Assembly: GCF_002896875.1 (NCBI RefSeq)
Contig: NZ_CP023278.1
Location: forward strand, 4,224,501-4,288,500
Length of the DNA stretch: 64,000 bases
DNA from: Nostoc sp. CENA543
GTDB taxonomy: Bacteria > Cyanobacteriota > Cyanobacteriia > Cyanobacteriales > Nostocaceae
Direction: 5' to 3'
Position numbers and translations under genes: made by a program. Numbering within the stretch: the stretch's first letter is position 1; every line of letters begins with the position of its first letter. The notes beneath the pieces are model-generated. The model did no database searches. It saw nothing but the letters and a program-made list of their open reading frames with translations, and was not told the origin of the DNA. Below, piece by piece: positions 2,233-23,294 of this stretch.

Positions 2233-5200
2233 ATGACCTTATCATCTGTAGAGAATAAATCTGGACTAACTGCTGTTGATTTTGACCCCTTTGCAGAAGG
2301 GGAATTATTACTAACCGCCCCCGCAACTGAATCTCAAAAAGAAATTTGGGCTTCTGTGCAGATGGGAGACGCTGCTAATTGTGCATATAATGAGTCGCAG
2401 TCTCTGCGCTTAAAAGGAAATTTAAATTTAGAAGCGTTACAATTTGCTTTACAGCAGTTAGTCCAGCGTCATGAAGCTCTACGGACAACCTTCAGTACCG
2501 ATGGTAGTACACTCTGCATAGTGGCTTCATTGGTGATTGATATTCCTGTCATTGATATTTCTGCACTAGAGTTGCAAAAAAAGGAAGCACAATTAAAAAG
2601 CTTAATCAAAGCAGAAGTAGAAACATCCTTCGATTTAGAACATGGCCCGCTATTTCGGGTAAAAATTATCAAATTGCAGCCAGAGGAGCATCTAGTCACT
2701 TTAACTGCTCATCATATTATTTGTGATGGTTGGTCTTGGGGAGTTTTAACACCGGAACTAGGTGAGATATATTCTGCCAAGGTAGAAGGTAGGACTCCAG
2801 ATTTAGAAGCCCCAAATGTATTTAGTGAATACGCGATTTTACAGGAAGAAGAACAGCAAACTCCAGAAGCGATCGCCACAGAACAATATTGGTTAGATCA
2901 GTTTGCCAACTCCGTACCTGTAGTAGATTTTCCCACAGATCGTCAACGTCCACCCTTAAGAAGCTTTAACTCAGCCCGTGAAGATTGGCAACTCAACTCA
3001 GAACTAGTTAGCAACCTCAAACAACTTGGGACAAAATTCGGTTGTAGCTTTATGACCACAATCCTGGCAGGATTTGAGGTCTGGCTACATCGCCTCACCG
3101 GACAAAATGACCTAGTTGTTGGTATTCCTGCTGCGGGTCAAGCTGCTTCAGGACAGTATAATTTGGTAGGTCACTGTGTAAATTTACTACCTTTGCGGAC
3201 TCAGATAGATAGCACCAAAGCTTTTAGTGACTACCTACAAAGCAGACGCTCAACCGTCTTAGATGGCTACGATCATCAACAATTTACCTTTGGCAGTCTC
3301 GTCAAAAAACTATCACTGCCCAGAGATTCTAGTCGTATACCTTTAGTACCAATCACCTTTAATATTGATCAAGGCTTAGACACTGATAAATTGCCCTTTG
3401 TGGGACTAGAAGTAGAATTTTTCTCTAACCCGCGCTCCTTCGAGAACTTTGAATTATTTATCAACGCAACGGAATTACGTGGTCAGTTGACCTTGGAGTG
3501 TCAGTACAACACCAACTTATTCGATGCTGATACTATCCGCCGTCGTATGGCAGAGTTTGAAACGTTGTTGTTGGGGATAGTTGCAAATCCCAATCAAATT
3601 ATTGCTAAATTGCCCATTTTGCCAGCAGTTGAGCAACAGCTATTAACAACATGGAATCAGACACAAACAGCCTATCCTCAAGATAAATGTATTCATCAGT
3701 TATTTGAGGAACAGGTAGCACGCACACCTGATGCAGTAGCATTAGTATTCCAAGAACAGGAACTCACCTATCGGGAGTTAAACTCTAGAGCGAATCAGTT
3801 AGCCCAACATCTACAAAACTTAGGCATCGGTGCAGATGAGCTAGTAGGTATCTGCATAGAGCGGTCTTTAGAAATGGTAGTAGGTCTTTTAGGTATTCTA
3901 AAAGCAGGTGGGGCTTACGTACCTCTAGATCCGGCGTATCCGCAAGAACGCTTGGAGTTCATGCTTGCAGACACCCAGATTAAATTATTATTAACCCAAA
4001 AACAACTAGCTGAAAAACTACCAACACACACTGCAAATGTCATTTATTTAGATACTGATTGGGATAGTATTAGCCAAATAAAACCAGAGAATCTAACTAA
4101 TATTGTTAAGCCTGACAACTTGGCTTACATAATGTACACATCTGGCTCTACAGGGCAACCCAAAGGTGTTAGTGTAATTCATCAAGGTGTCGTTAGATTA
4201 GTCAAAGATACTAACTATGTCAGCCTCACCAATCAAGAAGTATTTTTGCAAATCAGTCCTATCTCCTTCGATGCTTCAACTTTTGAAATTTGGGGTTGTT
4301 TACTCAATGGTGGAAAACTAGTAATTTTTCCGCCTCACACACCGTCTCTAGATGAATTAGGGCAAGTCATTCAGCAATACCAGGTGACAACCCTATGGTT
4401 AACTGCGGGATTATTCCATGTGATAGTTGATGAAAAAATTGATGCCTTAAAACCGTTGCGTCAATTATTGGCAGGTGGTGATGTTTTATCAGTTTCCCAC
4501 GTCCAAAAATTCCTCAGTACAGTAGAAAACTGTAAATTAATTAATGGTTACGGGCCAACAGAAAACACAACCTTTACCTGCTGTTATGAGATCACAGCAC
4601 CACTTAAGTCTGGGGCTTCTATCCCTATCGGTCGCCCGATCGCTAATACGCAAGTTTATATATTAGACTCCCAACTGCAAGTTGTTCCCATTGGCATCAC
4701 AGGTGAATTGTATATTGGTGGCGATGGTTTAGCACGAGAATATTTCCATCGTCCTGATCTCACAGCCGAGCGATTCATCCCTAACCCCTTTAGCCCAGAT
4801 CCTCAAGCACGTTTATATAAAAGTGGAGACTTAGGACGCTATTTACCGAATGGAGAGATTGAATATCTCGGACGCATTGATAATCAAGTAAAAGTGAGCG
4901 GTTTCCGTATAGAATTGGGTGAAATTGAAACTGCACTTTTGCAACATCCAGCAATCAAAGAAGCGGTCGTCATTGTTCGAGAAGATACTCCCGGTGAAAA
5001 ACTTTTGGTCAATTACTTTGTGGCAGCATCTAGTGCAGATAATCTGTCAATTGTTTCAGAGTTACGCCAATTCTTAAAACAAAAACTTCCTGAGTATATG
5101 GTGCCAAAGATTTTTATGGCACTAGAAACCATGCCGTTAAATGCCAACGGCAAAGTTGATCGTCGAGTCCTACCAAAACCTGATTCTTATCGCCCAGAAC

Positions 5201-5514
5201 TAGAGGCAAATTATGTAGCCCCACGCACTCCAACTGAGCAACAGATTGCCGATATCTGGTCACAGGTGATGAATATTAAGCAGGTGGGAATTTACGACAA
5301 CTTTTTTGAACTGGGGGGATATTCCCTAATAGGAATTCAAGTAGTTTCTCGAATGCGCCAAGCCTTGCAAGTAGAAATCTTGATGTCTAATTTATTTGAA
5401 TTACCAACTGTGGCCGATTTGGCGGAACGTGTAGAGACCCTGCGTTGGGCAGCCCAGAGTGTTCAATCCGCCGAGAGTGAAACAGCAGATGATTACGAGG
5501 AAGGTGAGCTATGA
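2233..5514 (+). CDS. Non-ribosomal peptide synthetase, C-A-PCP, predicted valine
   Basis: A single-module NRPS of 1093 residues. The C domain (about 25-465) has an intact HHIICDG at 160-166. The A domain (about 485-980) has A3 YTSGSTGQPKG at 635-645, A5 GYGPTE at 772-777 and A10 NGKVDR with Lys973. The PCP (about 1000-1065) has Ser1031 in LGGYS. Aligning by eye to GrsA, the pocket residues are D680, A681, F684, W722, L746, G748, G772, T780, F781 and K973, giving DAFWLGGTFK, a code I associate with valine. The leading C domain implies an acyl or peptidyl donor, but no donor module lies upstream in the window. The C terminus is acidic (DDYEEGEL), typical of a tail that docks to the TubC-type domain starting the next protein. 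Stop and next start overlap (ATGA). Confidence 0.95.
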   Translation: MTLSSVENKSGLTAVDFDPFAEGELLLTAPATESQKEIWASVQMGDAANCAYNESQSLRLKGNLNLEALQFALQQLVQRHEALRTTFSTDGSTLCIVASLVIDIPVIDISALELQKKEAQLKSLIKAEVETSFDLEHGPLFRVKIIKLQPEEHLVTLTAHHIICDGWSWGVLTPELGEIYSAKVEGRTPDLEAPNVFSEYAILQEEEQQTPEAIATEQYWLDQFANSVPVVDFPTDRQRPPLRSFNSAREDWQLNSELVSNLKQLGTKFGCSFMTTILAGFEVWLHRLTGQNDLVVGIPAAGQAASGQYNLVGHCVNLLPLRTQIDSTKAFSDYLQSRRSTVLDGYDHQQFTFGSLVKKLSLPRDSSRIPLVPITFNIDQGLDTDKLPFVGLEVEFFSNPRSFENFELFINATELRGQLTLECQYNTNLFDADTIRRRMAEFETLLLGIVANPNQIIAKLPILPAVEQQLLTTWNQTQTAYPQDKCIHQLFEEQVARTPDAVALVFQEQELTYRELNSRANQLAQHLQNLGIGADELVGICIERSLEMVVGLLGILKAGGAYVPLDPAYPQERLEFMLADTQIKLLLTQKQLAEKLPTHTANVIYLDTDWDSISQIKPENLTNIVKPDNLAYIMYTSGSTGQPKGVSVIHQGVVRLVKDTNYVSLTNQEVFLQISPISFDASTFEIWGCLLNGGKLVIFPPHTPSLDELGQVIQQYQVTTLWLTAGLFHVIVDEKIDALKPLRQLLAGGDVLSVSHVQKFLSTVENCKLINGYGPTENTTFTCCYEITAPLKSGASIPIGRPIANTQVYILDSQLQVVPIGITGELYIGGDGLAREYFHRPDLTAERFIPNPFSPDPQARLYKSGDLGRYLPNGEIEYLGRIDNQVKVSGFRIELGEIETALLQHPAIKEAVVIVREDTPGEKLLVNYFVAASSADNLSIVSELRQFLKQKLPEYMVPKIFMALETMPLNANGKVDRRVLPKPDSYRPELEANYVAPRTPTEQQIADIWSQVMNIKQVGIYDNFFELGGYSLIGIQVVSRMRQALQVEILMSNLFELPTVADLAERVETLRWAAQSVQSAESETADDYEEGEL

Positions 5515-8500
5515 AAACTTTGGAGCAACTATTATCTGAGCTACGTCAACGGGATGTAAAACTGTGGTTAGAAGGAGATCGCTTACGCTACCGAGCAGCA
5601 AAAGACAGCCTCACACCAGAATTACTGGCGGAGTTAAAAGCTCAAAAATCTGAAATTATCAATTTTTTACGGCAGATTACCACAGTGGCCACCGCCAATA
5701 TTCCCCCAATTGTCCCCTGTGAACGGAATGGCAACCTGCTGCTTTCTTTTGGTCAACAAAGGTTATGGTTTTTACATCAGTTTGAACCTGATAGTTCCTC
5801 GAATAATATGCCGGTGGTAGTGCGTTTTACAGGCAATCTCAACGTTACTATCCTAGAGGCAAGCCTAAAAGAAGTCGTTCGCCGCCATGAAGTTCTGCGG
5901 ACAACTTTTCCCGCAGTTGATGGCAAGCCAGTCGCAGTTGTTACCAGTGAGGTTTCCTTGACGTTGCCCATAGTTGATCTACGGCAAGTGCCAGAGGAAC
6001 AACGGGAGGCTGAAGCTTTCCGCTTGGCAACTGATGAAGCTCATCGACCATTTGATCTCGCCAACGGTCCAATTTTGCGGGTCTTACTGCTGCGGTTACG
6101 TGAGCAAGAGCATCTACTCGTCTGGAATATGCACGCCATAGTTTGTGATGGAGCCTCCTCTGATGTGTTCTATCAAGACTTTACTACCATCTACAAAGCC
6201 TTGGCTGAGGGAAAAACCTCTCCTTTACCACCTTTACCAGTGCAGTATGCTGACTTTGCCCATTGGCAACATCAATGGCTGCAAGGCGAAGTTTTGCAGT
6301 CTCAAGTCCACTATTGGCAGCAGAAATTAGCAGGTAGTTTACCGATTATTCAACTGCCTTATGATCACCCCCGTCCCTCGAATGTGCAAACTTATCGTGG
6401 CGATCGCGCGGCCCGGTTGCTACCAAAAACATTAAATTATGCCCTGACAGACTTGAGTCAAAAGTGGGGAGTAACCCTTTTCATGACTCTGCTGACAGTG
6501 TTTGAGCTATTACTCTACCGATATTCTGGACAGGAAGACCTACTCATTAGTTTTGCTAGTGTAGGTCGAGGACAAGTAGAAACCGAGAGGCTGATTGGAT
6601 TTTTTTCTAATACTTTGGTTCTGCGGAGTAACTTGGCAGGAAACCCAACTTTTCGAGAATTGTTAGACAGGGTGCGTAAGGATTGCCTAGAGGCTTATGC
6701 TCATCAAGACTTACCGTTTGAGAGATTAATTGAAGAACTCAAACCAGAGCAGCGCAACCGTAATAGTTCATCTCTGTTTCAGGTGAAATTTTCTCTGAAT
6801 CCACCTTGGTCGAATGGTCGTGGCATGGCATCGGTGCAACTGCCAGATTTAAACATGACTTCTCTGTTTGGATACATCTATCATGGCAAGACCAAATACG
6901 ATCTGATCTTAGTTTTACGAGAACAGGATAATGGTCTGGGCATGGTATTTGATTACAATGCAGATATGTTTGAGGTGAGTACCATAGAGCGGATGTTAGG
7001 ACACTTCCAAAGTTTGCTCGAAGGTATTGTAGCTAATCCAGACTGCCCCATTTTAGAATTGCCCCTGTTAACTAAAGCCGAACAACATCAACTTTTAGTC
7101 GATTGGAATCACACCAAAACGGCTGATATCAAGGATATTGCCATCCATCAATTATTTGAGGTTCAAGCCGAATGTACTCCCGATCGTATAGCGGCGATCG
7201 CACAACATGGGCAATTAACTTATCAACAACTCAATCAGCGAGCTAATCAACTAGCCCATTATTTGCAGACTCTAGGGGTAAGTACAGGAGTATCCGTTGG
7301 TTTATATGTAGAGCCATCCCTAGAAATGATTGTGGGATTATTGGGTATCTGTAAAGCAGGTGGAACATACGTACCCATCACACCCACATCACCAGACACA
7401 GCTTTCATCTGTCAAGATGCCCAAATCTCCCTATTACTCACTACCAGCTCATTAATTGAGCAACTGTCTGAGTGTGGAACTAAGATAATGTGCTTAGATA
7501 CTGATTGGTCAGCAATTGCCGTACACAATCAGCAAAATCCAGTCACTCCAGTCACACCTGATCACTTAGCTTGTATCACCTATCCACCCACCGCTACCGC
7601 TAGACCCCACGGGATCAGCATCAGCCACCGTAACCTAGTCAATCATAGTTTAGCCATTAGTCAAACCTGGGAATTGAGTCAAGGCGATCGCGTTCTGGTA
7701 TCCTCTGCCATAGATGAATCACTATTTTCCTGCTGGTTCAGTGGGACAGGTGCTGTGCTTCAGCCTCCATCTTTGCCAAACTCAATCACTCAGTTCTGCT
7801 CATTCATTAGCCAACAACAGATCACAGTCCTCAACCTATCCACTTATTTCTGGCATCAACTAGTTGATCATCTTGCCACATCTCCAGCAGTTTTACCTGA
7901 TAGCTTACGCTTAGTCATGGTGGGTGGGGAAAAAGTCTCACCCACAGCTTATCAAACTTGGGTTGAACGTGTGGGGACAAAAATACGCTGGCTCCACGCC
8001 TATGGTGTCAAAGAAACAACCTTCACCGCCACAGTTTACAATCCACAAACATCTAATCACAAAGAAATTCCCATTGGTAAACCGATAGCCAACACCCAAA
8101 TTTACATTCTCGATCAACTTTTGCAACCTGTACCGATTGGCTCTCCTGGGGAAATTTACATCAGTGGTGTCGGTGTCGTTCCAGGTTACTATCAACAATC
8201 TGACTTGACATCGCAAAAATTTATTCCCCACCCCTTTAGTGATGATCCCCAGGCACGTTTATATCAAACTGGGGACTTAGGCCGCTATTTGGCAGATGGC
8301 AACCTTGAGTATTTGGGACGCACAGATCGTCAAGTTAAAATACGTGGTGTTGGCATCGACTTGACACAGATAGAGTCTTTAATTGGTGAACATTCCGATG
8401 TAACTCAAGCGGTTGTCATCACTAATGAGCAGATTCCTGGGGAGCAACACTTAGTCGCTTACATCGTCTCTCATCAAGAACAGCAACCCCAAACTAGTGA

Positions 8501-9779
8501 CTTACGCTCTTTCCTATCCCAAAAACTGGCAGATGAGTTTATTCCCTCTGATTTTGTTTGTCTAAAATCTCTGCCCCTCACTGCTAATGGTCAAATCAAT
8601 TACCGCGCTTTACCAGAACCCAACTTTGTAAAACAACAGTTAGAAGGAAATTTTGTTGCTCCCCATAATGAAACAGAACTGCTCCTGACAACAATTTGGG
8701 CAAAGCTTTTAGGTATTCAAGGTTTTGGGATCAATGACAACTTCTTTGATTTGGGAGGTAACTCCATCCTAGCGGTACGTCTATTTACTGAAATTGAGCA
8801 GAATTTTGGGGTCAACTTTCCTCTATCAACGCTATTGCAAAGACCGACAATTGCAGAATTAGCGGCGATGATTCGCCAAGATGAATCTGCTCAAGAGTGG
8901 GAACACTTGGTGATCATTAAACCTGGCAGTTCTAGTAAGCCACCTTTCTTCTGTGTGAATGCTATTTGGGGCAACATCCTCTTCTACCGAGGGTTAGCAA
9001 GTTATCTCAGTCCCGACCAACCATTCTACGGGTTACAGTCTCAAGGACTAGATGGTAAGCAAACGCCCCTAAGTTCAATTCCAGAAATGGCAGCTAGTTA
9101 CATTCAAGAAATGCAGAGGGTGCAACCACAAGGCCCATACTATCTAGGTGGTTTTTCTTGGGGTGGAACTCTGGCTTTGGAAATTGCCCAACAACTGCAA
9201 GCTCAAGGCCAAGAAGTGAGATTGCTAGCTATTTTTGATACGGGTGCGCCCGCAATCGCACAATCCCAGGCACAGATGACAAATGTTCAATCTACTCGGT
9301 ACAGAACCAATTTACTTAATTTCCGACTTTGGGAACTGCAAGATTACTTAAGTAATCTGCGGGAAAAGATATCTTGGCATTTGAGAGCTGGGAAAGCGAG
9401 TATTTTATATCGTTTATATTTGCGCTATATTAAGCGATCTCTCCCAGAGTTTTACATTTTTAATGTAGCAGCCGCCAACTATAAAGCTTACAAAAGCTAC
9501 TTCGCCACCGCATATTCTGGGAAAGTTACTCTTTTTAGAGCAATTCAAGACTTAGCGCAGTTAGAAAAAAATGCGGAATTGCGTTGGGATCAAATAGCTA
9601 CTGATGGGGTAGATATTTATCAAGTTATGGGAGCTACCCACACAGGCCTGATGGAAGATTCTTACGTGAAGTTGCTGGCTGAACAATTACAATTGTGTTT
9701 GGAGCGATCGCAACAACAAAACAGAAACAAAATGCCTCCATTATCTCCTTTGCCAGAAGATGCTGTTTTAGCTTCTTGA
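5511..9779 (+). CDS. NRPS with docking-C-A-PCP-TE; C and A degenerate
   Basis: A 1422-residue NRPS whose start overlaps the previous stop by 4 nt. Order: TubC-like docking domain (1-55), C domain (about 75-515), A domain (about 545-1040), PCP (about 1050-1120, Ser1085 in LGGNS), and thioesterase (about 1140-1395, Ser1216 in GFSWG, probable Asp1243 and His1377). The C domain reads HAIVCDG at 208-214, so the second, catalytic His of HHxxxDG is Ala209. The A domain is also decayed. A3 is YPPTATARPHG (691-701) with no glycine-serine P-loop, A5 is YGVKE rather than YGPTE, A8 has GVGID, and A10 has Gln1028 where Lys is expected. A7 (TGDL) survives. PCP and TE look functional, so this is probably a carrier/offloading module that no longer selects an amino acid. 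The frame is intact over 4.2 kb, which argues for retained use. Confidence 0.95.
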   Translation: MKTLEQLLSELRQRDVKLWLEGDRLRYRAAKDSLTPELLAELKAQKSEIINFLRQITTVATANIPPIVPCERNGNLLLSFGQQRLWFLHQFEPDSSSNNMPVVVRFTGNLNVTILEASLKEVVRRHEVLRTTFPAVDGKPVAVVTSEVSLTLPIVDLRQVPEEQREAEAFRLATDEAHRPFDLANGPILRVLLLRLREQEHLLVWNMHAIVCDGASSDVFYQDFTTIYKALAEGKTSPLPPLPVQYADFAHWQHQWLQGEVLQSQVHYWQQKLAGSLPIIQLPYDHPRPSNVQTYRGDRAARLLPKTLNYALTDLSQKWGVTLFMTLLTVFELLLYRYSGQEDLLISFASVGRGQVETERLIGFFSNTLVLRSNLAGNPTFRELLDRVRKDCLEAYAHQDLPFERLIEELKPEQRNRNSSSLFQVKFSLNPPWSNGRGMASVQLPDLNMTSLFGYIYHGKTKYDLILVLREQDNGLGMVFDYNADMFEVSTIERMLGHFQSLLEGIVANPDCPILELPLLTKAEQHQLLVDWNHTKTADIKDIAIHQLFEVQAECTPDRIAAIAQHGQLTYQQLNQRANQLAHYLQTLGVSTGVSVGLYVEPSLEMIVGLLGICKAGGTYVPITPTSPDTAFICQDAQISLLLTTSSLIEQLSECGTKIMCLDTDWSAIAVHNQQNPVTPVTPDHLACITYPPTATARPHGISISHRNLVNHSLAISQTWELSQGDRVLVSSAIDESLFSCWFSGTGAVLQPPSLPNSITQFCSFISQQQITVLNLSTYFWHQLVDHLATSPAVLPDSLRLVMVGGEKVSPTAYQTWVERVGTKIRWLHAYGVKETTFTATVYNPQTSNHKEIPIGKPIANTQIYILDQLLQPVPIGSPGEIYISGVGVVPGYYQQSDLTSQKFIPHPFSDDPQARLYQTGDLGRYLADGNLEYLGRTDRQVKIRGVGIDLTQIESLIGEHSDVTQAVVITNEQIPGEQHLVAYIVSHQEQQPQTSDLRSFLSQKLADEFIPSDFVCLKSLPLTANGQINYRALPEPNFVKQQLEGNFVAPHNETELLLTTIWAKLLGIQGFGINDNFFDLGGNSILAVRLFTEIEQNFGVNFPLSTLLQRPTIAELAAMIRQDESAQEWEHLVIIKPGSSSKPPFFCVNAIWGNILFYRGLASYLSPDQPFYGLQSQGLDGKQTPLSSIPEMAASYIQEMQRVQPQGPYYLGGFSWGGTLALEIAQQLQAQGQEVRLLAIFDTGAPAIAQSQAQMTNVQSTRYRTNLLNFRLWELQDYLSNLREKISWHLRAGKASILYRLYLRYIKRSLPEFYIFNVAAANYKAYKSYFATAYSGKVTLFRAIQDLAQLEKNAELRWDQIATDGVDIYQVMGATHTGLMEDSYVKLLAEQLQLCLERSQQQNRNKMPPLSPLPEDAVLAS

Positions 9780-10688: not shown

Positions 10689-11573
10689 ATGCAACAGACT
10701 AAGGTGCTGAACGTGACTATTGACAACCTCACTATGGTGGAGTTGTTACAGAAATTGAAACATGGTGGTGTTGTTTTTACTCCTAATGTTAACCACATTA
10801 CACGCTTACAAAAACAACCAGATTTTTATTCTGTATATCAAGAAGCAGACTACATAGTATGTGATAGTAAAATATTAATGTATGCTTCTCAGTTTCTAAA
10901 TACACCCATTAAAGAAAAAATCTCAGGTTCAGATTTATTGCCAGCCTTCTATAACTATTATAAGAATGATGAAACCATCAAAATATTTTTGTTGGGTTCT
11001 GAAACTGAGATAGTAAAAAAAGCACAAAGAAGAATCAACGCTAAAGTTGGAAGAGAGATAGTGGTAGGAGCATATTCACCATCTTTCGGATTTGAGAAAA
11101 ATGAAGAAGAATGCCAAGAAATTGTCAAGATGATTAATTCATCAACAGCGACAGTTCTAGCAGTTGGCGTAGGTGCGCCTAAACAAGAAATGTGGATTAG
11201 CAAATATAAAGAACAACTCAAAAATATCACAGTTTTTTTAGCGATCGGTGCAACTATTAATTTTGAAGCAGGGACAGTCAAGCGATCGCCAAAATGGATG
11301 AGCGAAGTTGGATTGGAATGGCTTTATCGACTTGCCAGTGAACCCAAACGGCTGTGGAAAAGATATTTCTTCGATGTTATACCCTTTTTCTTGCTGATAT
11401 TAAAACAAAAGCTGCATATTTATCAGAACCCTTGGGTATCTGAGCAACAAATGCACATAACTAACTGGGATGATTTAAAATTTTCACAAGCATTTGGGAT
11501 GAGAGAAGCCTCTCTAGCTATGACTTCCGAAACAGAGTCGGCTGTCCAAGAGCAAACACAAGTCAGGAGTTAA
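10689..11573 (+). CDS. WecG/TagA/CpsF family glycosyltransferase
   Basis: A 294-residue cytoplasmic GT26-type enzyme. Family members such as TagA (N-acetylmannosamine) and WecG (ManNAcA) add the second sugar to an undecaprenyl-diphosphate-linked primer. Seen: TPNVNHI near residue 32-38, IVCDSKILMYASQ, the core around KIFLLGS, and the signature GVGAPKQEMWI near residue 160-170, all expected for the family. The C-terminal 45 residues are variable. It starts a run of same-strand polysaccharide genes (Wzc-like, acetyltransferase, GT2, GT4). It should act on a primer made by an initiating transferase encoded outside this window. Confidence 0.93.
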   Translation: MQQTKVLNVTIDNLTMVELLQKLKHGGVVFTPNVNHITRLQKQPDFYSVYQEADYIVCDSKILMYASQFLNTPIKEKISGSDLLPAFYNYYKNDETIKIFLLGSETEIVKKAQRRINAKVGREIVVGAYSPSFGFEKNEEECQEIVKMINSSTATVLAVGVGAPKQEMWISKYKEQLKNITVFLAIGATINFEAGTVKRSPKWMSEVGLEWLYRLASEPKRLWKRYFFDVIPFFLLILKQKLHIYQNPWVSEQQMHITNWDDLKFSQAFGMREASLAMTSETESAVQEQTQVRS

Positions 11574-11704
11574 TACTTGCAATTGTAAGGACAATGTGAT
11601 CATTATGCCTTGTTACTGATAAGACTGGTATTGCATAAGACTTACTACAGAGGTAGATGTTGTATTATGGTGATTAAATGTCCACATAAAATCACGTAAA
11701 TACT

Positions 11705-13900
11705 ATGGAGACACAAAACTCTGCTGAAGACATAGACATTCAAAAGTATCTACTAGTTCTGAAACGTCGCTGGTTGGTGATTGCAGGAGTATTTGTGCTT
11801 TTTGCTACATTGGGTGGAACACTTGCCCTTAAGCAACCCAAAAGCTATGAAGCGACTGGTAAGTTGCTGTTTCAAATGAACAGAACTTCATCCCTAACTG
11901 GAATTGGCGGAAAAATAGGGGATTTAGAATCCATAGGATCTAATCCTCTAGACACACAAGCTTTGTTAGTGAGGTCAAAGCCAATTCTAGAAGAGGTAGT
12001 GAATACTCTCAATCTCAAAGATAAAAAAGGCGAACGACTGAAGATAGAATCGGTTGACATCCAAGTTGAAGCAATTCCAGGTACAGATGGACTAAAAGTT
12101 GGGTATGTATCTGAAGATCCCTATCTAGCAAAAGCGATAGTCAATCAGGTAATGAAATCTTATATTGCCAATAACATTCTGACTAATAGATCAGAAGTGA
12201 TGGCTGCAGGGGATTTTATCGCTAAACAATTACCAGGGGCAAAGACAGAATTAGAAGAAGCACAAAAAGCTCTATTGCAGTTTAAAACTCAAAATAAGAT
12301 TGTTAATCTCGAAGAAGAAAGCAGTGGACTAGTAAAAAATGCAATTACCATTGACAGTGAGATCAACAATGCTCGCGCCCAACTAGCAGAGACTATTACT
12401 AGAGAAAAACAAATACTTAACCAAATAAATTTGCCAGCAGATCAAGCTGTGGATATTTCGTCTCTGAGTCAAGCTGCTGGTGTGCAAGATGCTTTCATCG
12501 AACTTCAGAAAATTCAAACTCAGTTAAAAATCCAACAAACCAGATACACGGATGCCAACCCCATTGTTATTAATCTAAAAAATCAAGAAAAAGCTTTAAA
12601 TTCTCTGTTAAAACAAAGGATTACTGAGTATTTAGGATATCCGATTCAGATTGAAACTGCCAGATTACAAATAGGCGAAATTAAAAGAGATTTATCTTTA
12701 GAGTTAGGTAAGTTACAATCACAACGCTTAGGATTAGAGAAAAGAATAACATCTTTATCTAATCTAAAATCAGCTTACGAACAAAGATTAGGAGCAATTC
12801 CTGATCTAGAAAAAACTCATGGTGAATTAGAGCAAAAAATGTTAATTGCTCAGAAAAATTATGAAAATCTTTTGACGAAATATCAAGAAATAAAGATAGT
12901 CGAAAGTCAAACTATAGGTAATGCACGTATTTTAGAATATGCCGAAGTTGATAGTAGTCCCAAAGCTAGTAAAAAGAAGGGACTTACCCTCATGGTATCA
13001 GTATTTGGGGGATTATTAGTGGGAATTGCGGTGGCATTCCTATTAGATGTGATTGATAGAAGGCTGAAAACAGCCAAGGAAGCAGAAGAGCTTTTTGGCT
13101 ACACCTTATTAGGTTTAATTCCTAAGTTTAGCAATAATTTCAATACAACTCAATTAGAAGATTCTGCCTTAGCTGAACCCGCAAGACGCGTAATTGTAGA
13201 AACAACTCCACGCTCTATGATTCACGAATCATTCGGTATGCTTCAGGCTAATTTGAAATTCATTAGTTTAGATAAAAAAATTCGGACGATCGCAGTTACA
13301 AGTTCCATTGCTGGCGAAGGAAAATCAGAAATCGCAGCCAATTTAGCAGCAGTGATCGCGCAGACAGGACGACGAGTGTTATTAATTGATGCAGATATGC
13401 GTCGCCCATCTCAACATCACCTGTGGAATTTAATTAACTCCGCTGGTTTAAGTAATGTTGTAGTCGAGCAGAATGATTTCTCAGCTACAGTACAAGCAGT
13501 TACACCCAGTTTATCTGTCCTCACCAGTGGAGTGACTCCCCCTAATCCTCTGGCTTTGATAGATTCCGAAGCCATGAAGAGCCTCATTGATAATTTGTCT
13601 AAAAAATATGATTACATAGTGTTTGATACTCCACCATTACTTGGTAATGCTGATGCAGCTGTATTGAGCAAACTGGCGGATGGAGTTCTCGTCGTATCAA
13701 GAATTGGTATTGTCGATGTAACAAGTGTTAATGCTGCCAAGTCCTTACTCTCACGTTCGGAAGTGAATGTTTTGGGTATTGTGGCTAATGCAGTTGATAT
13801 CACACAAGAGCCTAACTACTTCTATTATCAAAATCCCTCTTCGGAAAAGAGCATGACTAAGCAAGATTCTACGGATACAAGTATAAAAGCGGAACTTTAA
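11705..13900 (+). CDS. Wzc-like polysaccharide co-polymerase / BY-kinase
   Basis: A 731-residue fusion of a Wzz chain-length domain and a bacterial tyrosine kinase. Seen: N-terminal DIQKYLLVLKRRW then a transmembrane helix (about 23-42), a long periplasmic coiled-coil region (about 170-410), a second transmembrane helix (about 430-450), then the kinase with Walker A AGEGKS at 536-541, Walker A' VLLIDADMRRPS and Walker B YIVFDTPPL. A short Tyr-rich stretch (NYFYYQ) near the C terminus may be the autophosphorylation cluster, smaller than in E. coli Wzc. In this family, cycles of phosphorylation control polymer length and export. It follows the wecG-like gene by 131 nt and precedes an acetyltransferase by 37 nt. 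Confidence 0.95.
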   Translation: METQNSAEDIDIQKYLLVLKRRWLVIAGVFVLFATLGGTLALKQPKSYEATGKLLFQMNRTSSLTGIGGKIGDLESIGSNPLDTQALLVRSKPILEEVVNTLNLKDKKGERLKIESVDIQVEAIPGTDGLKVGYVSEDPYLAKAIVNQVMKSYIANNILTNRSEVMAAGDFIAKQLPGAKTELEEAQKALLQFKTQNKIVNLEEESSGLVKNAITIDSEINNARAQLAETITREKQILNQINLPADQAVDISSLSQAAGVQDAFIELQKIQTQLKIQQTRYTDANPIVINLKNQEKALNSLLKQRITEYLGYPIQIETARLQIGEIKRDLSLELGKLQSQRLGLEKRITSLSNLKSAYEQRLGAIPDLEKTHGELEQKMLIAQKNYENLLTKYQEIKIVESQTIGNARILEYAEVDSSPKASKKKGLTLMVSVFGGLLVGIAVAFLLDVIDRRLKTAKEAEELFGYTLLGLIPKFSNNFNTTQLEDSALAEPARRVIVETTPRSMIHESFGMLQANLKFISLDKKIRTIAVTSSIAGEGKSEIAANLAAVIAQTGRRVLLIDADMRRPSQHHLWNLINSAGLSNVVVEQNDFSATVQAVTPSLSVLTSGVTPPNPLALIDSEAMKSLIDNLSKKYDYIVFDTPPLLGNADAAVLSKLADGVLVVSRIGIVDVTSVNAAKSLLSRSEVNVLGIVANAVDITQEPNYFYYQNPSSEKSMTKQDSTDTSIKAEL

Positions 13901-13937
13901 ACATTTTCAATATTAACAAAAATCAAAAACCACATTT

Positions 13938-14525
13938 ATGAGTACATCACTAGAGCTAGAAGGAGATATACAAAAAACACAACAGGGGCAGTTAAATCTT
14001 TGGCAGCAGATTCAAGAGGATTGGGTAGCCCACGGAAGAGACTGGACTAAACCTGGCTTTAGAGCAGTGGCAGTGCATCGGTTTGGAGTTTGGAGAATGG
14101 GTATTCCATCCAAGATACTACGCGCTCCTTTTAGTATTCTTTATGGAATGCTATATCGTAAAGTACGTAATACCTACGGTATTGAATTACCTTACACAGT
14201 CAAACTTGGTCGCCGTGTAGTGATTGAACATCAAAGTGCGATCGTCATTCATGGTTACTGTTCAATAGGTGATGACAGTATCATTCGTCAAGGAGTGACT
14301 TTAGGGAACCGTTACCTTGACCGGCTTTTTGATGCTCCACAGTTGGGTAAAAGGGTAAATGTTGGTGCAGGAGCGAAAATTTTTGGCAATGTAACGGTGG
14401 GAGATGGTGCAAATATTGGTGCTAATGCTGTAGTGTTGACAGATATTCCAGCCGGAGCTACAGCAGTGGGTATACCAGCAAAAATAGTTAAAAATGCCAA
14501 AGATGCCGAAATTATTCCCAACTAA
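13938..14525 (+). CDS. Hexapeptide acetyltransferase, serine O-acetyltransferase-like
   Basis: A 195-residue left-handed beta-helix acetyltransferase. Seen: an N-terminal helical part with RDWTKPGFRAVAVHRFG, then hexapeptide repeats from about residue 90 (VIEHQSAIVIHG, SIGDDSIIRQGVTLGN, VNVGAGAKIFGNVTVGDGANIGANAVV), ending with the typical GIPAKIV turn. The sequence is CysE-like, but such proteins in polysaccharide loci often acetylate sugars instead of serine. It lies in a tight operon: the next start is 2 nt after its stop. The substrate is probably a nucleotide- or lipid-linked sugar, by context only. Confidence 0.88.
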   Translation: MSTSLELEGDIQKTQQGQLNLWQQIQEDWVAHGRDWTKPGFRAVAVHRFGVWRMGIPSKILRAPFSILYGMLYRKVRNTYGIELPYTVKLGRRVVIEHQSAIVIHGYCSIGDDSIIRQGVTLGNRYLDRLFDAPQLGKRVNVGAGAKIFGNVTVGDGANIGANAVVLTDIPAGATAVGIPAKIVKNAKDAEIIPN

Positions 14526-14527
14526 AT

Positions 14528-15751
14528 ATGAATATTAACCAAGTCATAAATTTGTTTACCTACGCTGTCTTACTGATTGGTGCATTCGGGTTCTTCACCT
14601 TAAGTTTAATCTTGTTTTTAGAATGTTTTGCGGCTCTTCTCCCTTCTGATATCCCTAAACACGTGAATGATGGGCAGCCTAAAAAGGTGGCAGTTTTGAT
14701 TCCCGCCCACAATGAAGAGCAAGTAATTAGTTCCACACTCTTAGAAATAAAATCACAGTTAACGAATCAACACCAACTAGTTGTAGTTGCAGATAATTGC
14801 AGTGATAAAACAGCCGCAATTGCCCGTGAAATTGGTGCTAAAGTTATTGAGCGTGAAGATCCCATCTGCAGAGGCAAAGGCTACGCTTTAGACTATGGTT
14901 TGAGATTGATAGAGTCAGAACCACCAGATATAGTAGTGTTTTGCGATGCTGACTGTAAAGTTGAACCAGGGGCAATAGATAAGTTGGTACAGTATGCGAT
15001 CGCCACAAATAGACCTGTACAGGCGACTTACTTAATGGAGAAATCCTGCGACGCTAGCCCTAAAGAATCTGTCTCCGTCTTTGCCTTCAAGTTAAAAAAT
15101 CTAGTACGTTTGCGCGGGTTAGCTAAATTGGGTATTCCCTGCTTATTAACTGGAACAGGTATGGCTTTTCCTTGGTCTGTGATTAAATCAGTTGATTTAG
15201 CCAGTGGTTACATTGTTGAAGATATGAAACTTGGTCTTGACTTAGCTATTGCTGGTTACGCACCAGTATTTTGCTCAGAAGCTAATGTAACTGCGTTGTT
15301 ACCTAAGAAAACACAAGCAGTTAAAAGTCAAAGAACCCGTTGGGAACACGGTCATTTAAAGACTTTGCTCACTTATGTACCGAAACTGATTGGGGAATCA
15401 ATCAAGCAGGCCAGGTTGGATTTATTACTTAGTGGTTTAGACTTATGTGTCCCTCCTTTGTCTTTATTGATGTTGATCTGGTTAATGCTAGTAACAGTAA
15501 CTTTTGGTCTGGGGTTACTGACAAATATCTGGATGCCAGTGGCCATTTTAGCCCTAGCCAGTTTATTGTTGTTAAGTGGAATACTGATAGCTTGGATGAA
15601 ATTTGGGCGGACTGATTTACCTCTGCTACAGCTTTTAGCCATACCGCTTTACATTCTTGGGAAGATTCCTCTCTATCTGAAGTTTTTAGTTAAACCCCAA
15701 AATTCATGGATTCGGACAGAAAGAGACTCAACTAACATTTCCCAGTCTTAA
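14528..15751 (+). CDS. Membrane-bound family 2 glycosyltransferase
   Basis: A 407-residue GT2 enzyme anchored by an N-terminal helix (about 8-33) and two or more C-terminal helices (about 315-375). Seen: VAVLIPAHNEEQVI at the nucleotide-binding strand, FCDAD (about 138-142) as metal-binding DXD, VEDMKL as the catalytic-base region, and QRTRW (about 267-271), which matches the QxxRW motif of processive cellulose/hyaluronan-type synthases. It is translationally coupled to the upstream acetyltransferase (2-nt gap). Topology fits a cytoplasmic catalytic domain building lipid-linked sugar; whether it is processive cannot be told from sequence. Confidence 0.93.
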   Translation: MNINQVINLFTYAVLLIGAFGFFTLSLILFLECFAALLPSDIPKHVNDGQPKKVAVLIPAHNEEQVISSTLLEIKSQLTNQHQLVVVADNCSDKTAAIAREIGAKVIEREDPICRGKGYALDYGLRLIESEPPDIVVFCDADCKVEPGAIDKLVQYAIATNRPVQATYLMEKSCDASPKESVSVFAFKLKNLVRLRGLAKLGIPCLLTGTGMAFPWSVIKSVDLASGYIVEDMKLGLDLAIAGYAPVFCSEANVTALLPKKTQAVKSQRTRWEHGHLKTLLTYVPKLIGESIKQARLDLLLSGLDLCVPPLSLLMLIWLMLVTVTFGLGLLTNIWMPVAILALASLLLLSGILIAWMKFGRTDLPLLQLLAIPLYILGKIPLYLKFLVKPQNSWIRTERDSTNISQS

Positions 15752-15803
15752 TTTTTCTACCAAAACTAGCAAAAATAAAATTGATTTTTACATCAGTAAT
15801 TTT

Positions 15804-17057
15804 ATGAAAAAACAGGGAATTTTACTAGTGATGCCCGTTCCATTTCGGATGGTAGAGGGTCGTTTGGGCTTTGATGATCAAACATGCGAAGGACTCATAC
15901 GATGGGCGGAAAATTTTGATCATGTGGTTATGGCTTGTCCAGTCATCCCTGAACAAGTCTTTGCTACTAGTGAAACATCTCTAACTTGGCAAGCGATCGC
16001 TGATTTACCCTGTGCTGATAAGTTGGAGTTAGTTCCACTACCTTATGCTTATAAGATTCCCGATTTCATTAAAACCTACAAAGCAACTAGTCAGCTATTA
16101 AGTGAGAAAATCCAAAAGTCCCAGTATCTTTGTTTTGCCCTAAGTGGTGTCATCGGAGATTGGGGGGCGATCGCCTGTTTAGAAGCAATTAAACTCCAAC
16201 GTCCCTATGCAGTCTGGGCAGATCGGGTAGAATACGAAGTCATTAGCAGGACTTTGTGGAAAAAAGAGTCATTAAAAAAAGCTCCCCTCAAACGTCTAAT
16301 CAAGGATTTTTTGACTCTCCCATTGCACAAGCCCTATCAAAGATATCTCATCCGTCGCAGCCAGCTAGGATTATTCCAAGGACAGGATTGTTATTCAGCT
16401 TATTCACCCTTCTGTAAAAATTCTCATTGCGTTTATGACATTCACACTAAAAAGTCAGATCAAATTGATGCTGCTAGTCTTGATCTGAAAATTAAGCCCC
16501 TATCCAACGGCGAACCATTACGTATATGCTATGTAGGACGAGCCGCAGAAATGAAGGGTCCATTGGACTGGCTACGAGTTGTACATCTTCTTTGTGAGGC
16601 CGGAGTAAACTTAAAAGCCACTTGGTTAGGAGATGGGCCTCTGCTGGCTGACATGAAGTCACTTGTCAATGAATTAGGGATTACCGAAAAAGTCCATTTA
16701 GCGGGATTTGTTAGCGATCGCCACCAAATTTTGACAACCATGAAAAGCAATCATATCTTCCTGTTTTGTCATAAAACACCAGAATCGCCCCGGTGCCTAG
16801 TTGAGTCTTTAGTCTCTGGTTGTCCTATTATTGGTTACAGTAGCCCCTATTCTGAAGGTTTAGTATCTCAATTTGGTGGTGGAGCATTTGTCACACTCAA
16901 CAACTGGCAAAAATTAGCTGACTTAATCATCGATATCAATTCAGATCGAGAAAAATTAAGTAAATTAATTTTCCAAGCTGCCTTATCTGGTCAGCAGTTT
17001 GATGAAGAAACTGTATTTCAAAATCGCAGTGACTTAATTAAGCAATATTTACCATAA
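15804..17057 (+). CDS. Glycosyltransferase, GT4/group 1 type
   Basis: A 417-residue soluble GT-B fold enzyme. The C-terminal half carries the group-1 features: RICYVGRAAEMKGPLDWLRVV, then ATWLGDGPL, VHLAGFVSDRHQI, and an ESPRCLVESLVSGCPIIGY segment corresponding to the E-x7-E nucleotide-sugar binding loop. The N-terminal half is divergent and gives no acceptor clue. Last gene of the same-strand run that begins with the wecG-like gene; the gap to the GT2 is 52 nt. Confidence 0.9.
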   Translation: MKKQGILLVMPVPFRMVEGRLGFDDQTCEGLIRWAENFDHVVMACPVIPEQVFATSETSLTWQAIADLPCADKLELVPLPYAYKIPDFIKTYKATSQLLSEKIQKSQYLCFALSGVIGDWGAIACLEAIKLQRPYAVWADRVEYEVISRTLWKKESLKKAPLKRLIKDFLTLPLHKPYQRYLIRRSQLGLFQGQDCYSAYSPFCKNSHCVYDIHTKKSDQIDAASLDLKIKPLSNGEPLRICYVGRAAEMKGPLDWLRVVHLLCEAGVNLKATWLGDGPLLADMKSLVNELGITEKVHLAGFVSDRHQILTTMKSNHIFLFCHKTPESPRCLVESLVSGCPIIGYSSPYSEGLVSQFGGGAFVTLNNWQKLADLIIDINSDREKLSKLIFQAALSGQQFDEETVFQNRSDLIKQYLP

Positions 17058-22532: not shown

Positions 22533-22830
22533 ATGGAGGCGAGATTTGAAGGGTTAAGTGACTCAGAGTGGAAGCTGTTTGAATATATATTACCAAAGGA
22601 ACCAGAAAAGAAAGTACGGGGAATAACTCATGCACCATTTCAATATATACTTAACACCTTATTGTATATATTGATAACAGAATGTTGTTGGTGTATGCTC
22701 CCACTGGAGAAATTTGGGCATCAAAAATTGCAACGCACAGATGGCAACAATCTTGGGAAACAGACGGAACTTTGGAAAATTTACAGATTGGTATCCATAA
22801 ATTATATAAAATTATATTTACGTTTTGATA
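22533..22830 (+). pseudogene. Frameshifted, truncated IS5-type (DUF4096) transposase
   Basis: It starts with ATG and MEARFEGLSDSEWKLFEYIL, the N terminus of the DUF4096 half of IS5-family transposases, and runs to about ECCWCMLP near 22702. The homologous reading then continues in the next frame as GEIWASKIATHRWQQSWE and TDGTLENLQ before a stop near 22830. So there is a one-base frameshift, and the C-terminal DDE half is absent. It is a second, less decayed relative of the remnant at 19484-19831, in the opposite orientation. Confidence 0.85.
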
Positions 22831-23294
22831 AAAATTACGTAAAGTTATTGGTAATTCTATTGAAACTCTATTGATATGTATTATCTTTCAAGCAGACAAA
22901 AAAATGTTATTAAGTAAATCTTTAGCCTTATGTAAATTCAGGCTTCAATAGTGTCTATGAGTCATGCTGTATTTCTGCACAGCACCTAAATTTCAGAGAA
23001 GTAGATTCTTCTTATGAATCAATATAGAAAATACTTATATTATAAATAATAAAAATATAGGTTGAATAATGATTCATTTAAAAATATCGATACTATAACT
23101 ATATAGATATCCAACGATAGATTTAAATCAGTAGGAAAATAGAATCATTCGTGGGAAAATATGCCAATAAAGCAAGTGTAATAAGAGCAAGCCTTAACTA
23201 TATAACCTACTAAGGTAAATAAGCTTAGGAAATTAATTTTTGCAAATATCATCTCAAAAAAGTAAATATGCAACCGTATATAAAGGCAAAAACT
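22831..23294. other. AT-rich intergenic region
   Basis: About 460 bp between the transposase remnant and the next glycosyltransferase. No gene or structured repeat is visible; it presumably contains the promoter of the downstream GT2 gene. Confidence 0.4.

Follow-up and report, generated by a model that had tools for sequence, protein, structure and literature searches.

What keeps an intact nonribosomal peptide synthetase (NRPS) module in a genome when its condensation (C) and adenylation (A) domains have both lost their catalytic motifs? The question is raised by a gene of Nostoc sp. CENA543 lying in a 64,000-nucleotide stretch of contig NZ_CP023278.1 (G000:C1:4224501-4288500, part of a 7.2 Mb genome; hereafter the window). 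The gene (5511-9779, plus strand, as are all features below) encodes a protein of 1,422 amino acids (aa) with the architecture TubC_N-C*-A*-PCP-TE, where PCP is the peptidyl carrier protein, TE the thioesterase, C* a C domain without the second His of its HHxxxDG motif and A* a degenerate A domain. Comparison with other cyanobacteria placed C* in a widespread and strongly constrained clade in which every member read has lost this His, the A domain behind it being relaxed and repeatedly deleted. We tentatively propose a module that may end the assembly line without adding a residue.

Architecture and Residues of the Module

The first-pass annotation, made from the letters of the window, had described a reading frame intact over 1,422 residues, with destroyed C and A active sites and a preserved PCP and TE. 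Our re-reading confirmed the uninterrupted open reading frame (ORF) and every residue named. In the site HAIVCDGA (6132-6155; HAIVCDG being residues 208-214), Ala209 replaces the second His, and Ala215 is found in place of the Trp usual after DG. The A3 loop reads YPPTATARPHG (residues 691-701; 7581-7613), A5 reads AYGVKE (residues 830-835; 7998-8015) and A10 reads NGQINYR, with Gln1028 replacing Lys (8586-8606), so that none of the three features looked for in a functional A domain (A3 P-loop, A5 motif, A10 Lys) is present. The A4 position holds Asp (IDESLF) in the window and Ile in most relatives, as read from a hand alignment. Pfam placed TubC_N, a docking domain, at residues 5-55 (5523-5675), Condensation at 75-529 (C*, 5733-7097), AMP-binding at 549-894 with its C-terminal part at 953-1027 (A*, 7155-8612), PP-binding at 1059-1121 (PCP, 8685-8873) and Thioesterase from 1145 (TE, 8943-9695); the end of the TE was placed by hand at residue 1395, the best Pfam stretch being 1145-1272. 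The PCP Ser is Ser1085 in FFDLGGNS, and the TE has Ser1216 (GGFSWGG), Asp1243 (FDTGAP) and His1377 (GATHTG).

The Second His Is Missing from a Whole Clade of Cyanobacterial C Domains

Named relatives of the protein include one from Nostoc sp. 106C and one from Nostoc sp. T09. At family level, the whole protein was searched against 192 genomes and the docking and C domains against 217 genomes. This gave 32 genomes with C*, the window's included; 29 of the others have C* domains 84-86% identical to that of the window, and G116 and G102 have domains 52% identical. An order-level sample of 388 genomes added C* in G395, G447, G319, G412 and G519, and a class-level sample of 388 genomes added 12 C* domains from 11 genomes; the cut-offs used in these two samples favour near relatives, and some weaker matches (e.g., G845) were not read. 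The second His was absent from all 49 C* domains read, which come from 48 cyanobacterial genomes and several families of the class. Position 209 is occupied by Cys in 36, Ser in 8, Arg in 3, Ala in the window and Asn in 1, the motif thus starting with HC (36), HS (8), HR (2), or once each with DR, HA (the window) and HN. The first-pass annotation had asked whether the C substitution recurs in orthologues, and had reasoned that mostly intact orthologues would point to local decay; what was found is the reverse, the His being gone from 32/32 family members and from 17 more. Local decay or a sequencing error was ruled out because C* is conserved across many separate assemblies at low ratios of nonsynonymous to synonymous substitution (dN/dS).

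The same split, beyond what chance would give, was seen in an alignment of 100 C-type rows, where the second His is present in 63/63 rows outside the C* clade (58 distinct, as five identical rows fall among them) and in 0/37 inside. In a quick tree built from 95 domains, these 37 C* domains formed a single clade with an SH-aLRT support of 99, and the clade stayed at 97 when class-level members were included in a quick tree of a thinned set omitting 14 near-identical family members. Three of the trees (these two of C domains and one of A domains) were quick ones, and a careful search on the thinned C set did not finish; identical rows, rows rich in unknown letters and short matches were dropped by script from trees and counts. 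As judged from these trees, the C* clade has one origin. Its sister clade is made up of terminal C domains that are intact, from G163, G059, G212 and G514, and these are located in related gene clusters: that of G212 has a polyketide synthase (PKS) with an aminotransferase and a cupin-like gene, the PKS is shorter (~1,160 aa) in those of G163 and G059, and that of G514 has a PKS, an acyltransferase, a C-A-PCP gene and a terminal module that lies in several frames, its C domain being intact.

Selection Constrains C* More Strongly Than the A Domain That Follows

dN/dS was estimated by the NG86 method, a crude one, and medians are given; dS was often saturated for the TE, and for C* in comparisons with G116 and G102. 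The C and A domains of the partner protein, a C-A-PCP protein encoded directly upstream, were used for comparison, the domain limits of the f55 partner proteins being taken from alignment columns. Between pairs of the 22 full-length members the medians were 0.091 for C* and 0.108 for the partner C domain, against 0.248 for A* and 0.158 for the partner A domain, a figure raised by the presence of two types of partner A domain among the 22. When the window was compared with those 22, the values were 0.095 for C* (dS 0.96), 0.105 for the partner C, 0.206 for A* and 0.099 for the partner A. C* remained between 0.05 and 0.13 in all comparisons with unsaturated dS, and A* was at 0.21-0.30 where the partner A domain was at 0.08-0.16. 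In two pairs of intact relatives the A domains of both proteins were nearly equal (0.159 and 0.175).

C* is under strong purifying selection and is as constrained as the partner C domain, which is intact. A* is relaxed, yet some constraint is left, because its dN/dS is well under 1. The first-pass proposal that selection has maintained the module, probably for a noncanonical job, is supported by the C* ratio of about 0.09 and by the loss of the His in every member read, with the correction that selection has not preserved the module as one piece: it constrains C* strongly, but is relaxed on the A domain, which has been lost by deletion several times.

The state of the A domain could be assessed in 46 members (the stretches of three class-level members end or break too early). 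It is full-length and degenerate in 32, partly degenerate in one (G555), without its core in nine and with all motifs in four. The nine (G088, G141, G122, G133, G056, G447, G412, G519 and G675, the last judged from the alignment alone) have kept C*, PCP and TE. The differing remnants and their tree positions lead us to estimate at least five deletions. The degenerate Nostocaceae A domains are one clade, and those of G395 and G319, on long branches whose placement differs between trees, stay outside it in both A trees; for this reason, A decay behind C* has probably occurred at least twice independently. Given its relaxation and repeated deletion, the A domain is apparently dispensable in most lineages. 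A simultaneous death of the C and A domains was ruled out, all three A motifs being kept in 4/46 assessable members, which makes the change in C and the change in A separate events.

The Active Site of C* Looks Rebuilt

To see what else distinguishes C*, columns conserved across intact C domains, sister sequences included, were compared with the 37 C* rows. The 35 comparison domains had been picked for HHxxxD, so that the His column differs by construction, and one of the five sister rows is a duplicate. Among the residues lost in C* are His209 (37/37), Trp215, Tyr98 (Asn in 36/37) and Gly347. Newly conserved ones, each found in 34-36 of the 37 rows, include Trp205, Ala215, Tyr221, Phe348, Ser350 and Ser366. 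Several of the changed motifs presumably surround the active site. By gap-free counting from HHxxxDG, anchored on what we take to be the second His of SrfA-C at position 147, Trp205 and Tyr221 would correspond to SrfA-C positions 143 and 159. Both positions are listed as lining the acyl site (PMC11142918, in part). With new conserved residues alongside the losses, partly at mapped acyl-site positions, the C* site looks rebuilt and then held rather than merely rotted.

The overall fold is that of a C domain. The window C* scores 370 bits against the Pfam Condensation model, and in a structure model of the A-less G122 relative, C* matched single C domains in Foldseek with a TM-score (by target) of up to 0.84. 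The model was made from 24 alignment rows, two of them intact relatives, and with a mean pLDDT of 66 and a pTM of 0.45 it is adequate for folds and too low in quality for tunnels. HHxxxDG with the second His, as expected of a functional LCL domain, occurs in 0/49 C* domains; the fold and the other core motifs are there.

PCP, TE and the Docked Partner Protein

In all 45 C* proteins that extend that far, a PCP with its Ser kept lies between C* and the TE, and the TE nucleophile is Ser or Cys, the latter in G102 (the one such family member) and in several class-level members. The TE itself follows C* poorly: that of the window is 62% identical to the G116 TE and 36-40% identical to those of the 22 full-length members, and proteins with C* domains at least 84% identical can have TEs only 36-50% alike. 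C* and intact modules, on the other hand, can share TEs that are 80-89% alike, such as the G185 TE, 89% identical to that of the intact G163. The PCP-TE portion thus appears, from these identities, to have been exchanged between clusters as a cassette.

The chain offered to C* most likely comes from the partner, a C-A-PCP protein of 1,093 aa (2233-5514; Pfam) whose motifs are intact (HHIICDGWS, YTSGSTGQPKG, NGYGPTE, NGK and the PCP Ser). The start codon of the C* gene overlaps the 3' end of the partner gene by four bases. The partner ends in an acidic tail, DDYEEGEL (5488-5511), which is the likely docking partner of TubC_N. An EEGE[LI] tail is found in 31 of the 32 family-level partners, the window's included, the exception being the shortened copy of G187; the intact relatives have EEGQL. 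TubC_N is present in 6/6 relatives scanned, and in G412 the C-A-PCP and C* proteins are fused in that order. The conserved tail, the TubC_N domain and this fusion all point to the partner as the source of the chain, and the EEGEL tail and TubC_N would be the docking pair. The G187 partner (L064:7522-10620) has 1,032 aa and stops before the PCP serine; the line is perhaps broken there.

With hand-made anchors, the specificity code DAFWLGGTFK, which we take to resemble a valine code, was read in the window both in the partner A domain and in a stand-alone A-PCP protein. The code was read in 21 of the 32 partner proteins of C* clusters; the script gave none for 11. Among the intact relatives, G163, G059 and G212 (L074, L076, L128) have the DAFWLGGTFK-type A domain in the terminal module, one step later than in the 21 C* clusters; an A domain may have moved.

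The genes upstream encode the stand-alone A-PCP, a PKS (ketosynthase-acyltransferase-acyl carrier protein, plus a class III aminotransferase), a cupin-like protein, a TIGR04325-family methyltransferase (78-914) and an OafA-like acyltransferase (Acyl_transf_3, Pfam; 987-2168) of the same cluster. PKS, acyltransferase, C-A-PCP and C* protein occur together in 16/16 neighbourhoods (L058-L073), one of which has the OafA-like relative as a 165-aa fragment, and the A-PCP gene adjoins the PKS wherever the fetched stretch extends that far. The OafA-like acyltransferase was not found within the stretches of G395, G447 and G319. A rule that it accompanies C* was rejected on these three stretches and on G514, which has both the acyltransferase and an intact C domain. 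The slot between PKS and NRPS, where the methyltransferase lies, is variable: across L138, L139, L140, L141, L149, L156, L157 and L159 it holds a glycosyltransferase of family GT8, several methyltransferases, cupin-like or OafA-like genes, as far as the slot genes at class-level loci were identified. After the synthetase cluster, at 10689-17057, follow polysaccharide-type genes (WecG/TagA-like, Wzc-like kinase, serine-acetyltransferase-like and two glycosyltransferases), relatives of some of which also adjoin the clusters of G116 and G102. A 113-aa ORF at 22533-22874 with a match to DUF4096 (IS4/5-type transposase) is probably a transposase remnant.

A Module That May Terminate without Elongating

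The explanation we prefer, while holding it tentatively, is that of a non-elongating termination module, which passes the docked upstream chain to PCP-TE without adding a residue. The C-A-PCP protein would dock through its EEGEL tail onto TubC_N and offer its PCP-bound chain to C*, which would form no peptide bond and would bind and position the donor chain. The chain would then move to the module's own PCP-TE, or directly to the TE, and leave with no third amino acid joined to it. The A domain would have been unnecessary from the time when C* ceased elongating, decaying in most lineages and being deleted in several, with the docking domain, C*, PCP and TE retained. As the A domain and the His are both gone, transfer without extension is the simplest account. 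The His loss in every C* read, the constraint on C*, the relaxation or loss of A, the PCP and TE residues and the conserved cluster with its acidic tail are observed; the absence of elongation, the route of the chain, donor binding by C* and the docking pair are what we infer from them. The variable residue at 209 (C, S, A, R or N) fits no fixed catalytic role.

Several results weigh against this proposal. The strongest is that G642, G605, G689 and G677, all of one genus, keep A3, A5 and A10 behind C*; if nothing is added there, it is difficult to see why the A domain should be intact. These members are nested within the C* clade, and their A domains are the sister of the degenerate Nostocaceae A clade (SH-aLRT 94). 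With G555 included, the A domains of this genus have dN/dS values of 0.10-0.24 (ten pairs), against 0.046-0.079 for the partner A domain in the six pairs with the partner protein at hand, and in those six pairs the A domain behind C* evolves 1.7-3.7 times faster. In the G689 stretch read, no C-A-PCP gene adjoins the C* gene. The genus can represent an earlier stage of A loss, or it can mean that C* and A still add a residue there. In addition, 95 of the 112 columns conserved in the intact domains and the sister group are retained in C*, so that much of the C machinery is still there, and mutation of the second His does not always abolish activity, an active HQxxxDM domain having been described (PMC11546977, in part).

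The leading alternative, which we regard as unlikely but serious, is that C* condenses without the His, onto a PCP loaded by its own intact A domain in the genus above; in other members the stand-alone A-PCP or the A domain of the upstream protein would load it in trans. There is debate over what the second His does (PMC11546977), and loading in trans by a stand-alone A-T protein is known for syringomycin, albicidin, ramoplanin and enduracidin (section 4.1 of PMC8949500). The PCP Ser kept in 45/45 proteins would be explained, and the cluster does encode a stand-alone A-PCP. However, a related A-PCP (57% identical, with a different hand-read code) is also found in the G059 cluster (L076), whose terminal module is intact, and the simplest role for it there is to load the PKS. 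Among the genes scanned at the loci read, no dedicated shuttle was recognized, and loading in trans would have had to be available at each of the repeated A deletions. The Trp after DG was also lost together with the His, and residue 209 is not fixed.

It is less probable still that C* is a recruiting or scaffolding domain, docking tailoring enzymes as X domains do or holding a synthetase dimer as does C1 of VibF, a catalytically inactive domain that dimerizes its subunit (according to a title cited in PMC8795117). X domains are related to C domains and no longer have HHxxxDG; their proposed origin is an additional module that was once present and left an A remnant at the TE (section 3.1 of PMC8949500). 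The three C* members with Arg at 209 share that residue with them. In all 16 neighbourhoods, and in five C* clusters of the order sample, PKS and NRPS are separated by a putative tailoring gene. Yet the variety of genes in this slot speaks against the idea: a tailoring partner covarying with C* was looked for across the neighbourhoods and not found, there was no P450 match among the Pfam-scanned genes (part of the neighbours), and several C*-specific changes fall in active-site motifs.

Very improbable, in our opinion, is a covalent relay in which the Cys or Ser at the lost-His position (44/49) would be a new nucleophile and C* an acyl-enzyme passing the chain from the upstream PCP to its own, much as a non-elongating ketosynthase (KS0) does. 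In that case the window protein with its Ala, like the forms with Arg or Asn, would be a secondary loss left with a scaffold role only. Plain decay of a pseudogene open by chance is hardly credible: the A domain is decaying, the C* frame of G790 is followed by separate pieces (L162, a low-completeness genome), the G187 partner is shortened and the related terminal module of G514 (L146) is in several frames, but long ORFs in nearly all members over several families, the PCP and TE residues, and a C* dN/dS of about 0.09 between genera at dS near 1 already refute it as a general explanation.

Comparison with Known Systems

No description of such a module was found in the open-access literature searched, some of the searches being narrow and no proof of absence. 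The proposed transfer recalls KS0 domains of trans-AT PKSs, which have lost the catalytic His and pass the chain on without extension. KS0 domains, however, belong to another enzyme family and retain their acyl-accepting Cys, whereas C domains normally form no covalent acyl-enzyme intermediate. VibF C1 is likewise a C domain retained without catalysis (by the title cited in PMC8795117), in a different enzyme. A module without a working A domain is also seen in the terminal C-T-TE of SyrE, fed by SyrB1, and in the inactive A domain of albicidin type; in these systems a stand-alone A-T protein brings the residue in trans and it is then condensed (PMC8949500), unlike here, where C* has no His and no dedicated supplier was recognized at the loci read.

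If the module does not elongate, product predictions from module counts can be one residue too long here. The C* proteins offer natural test cases for the role of the second His, called debated in PMC11546977, and for how an assembly line can drop a residue and keep its release step. It is rare that the successive evolutionary stages of a C-domain pseudoenzyme can be compared among extant proteins. Here they range from an intact terminal module, through a C domain that lacks the His and precedes an A domain with intact motifs, a degenerate A or a partly deleted A, to C*-PCP-TE with no A domain.

The closest parallel is the X domain of glycopeptide synthetases (4TX2/4TX3), a pseudo-condensation domain of the same fold, related to C domains and located in the termination region; it has been proposed to descend from an additional module, since lost, of which a remnant of the A domain is left (PMC8949500). 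The C* protein is not an X domain, because the defining features tested do not agree: X lies directly between the last PCP and the TE, and here a PCP follows C*; X has HRxxxDD (PMC11546977, in part), and the window has HAIVCDG, with HR in only 2/49 members (G116 and G519), both as HRxxxDG. X domains also recruit P450s, for which no match was seen among the genes scanned. The series of stages is nevertheless close to the route proposed for the X domain (PMC8949500), and by this analogy the C* proteins may show the same evolutionary route.

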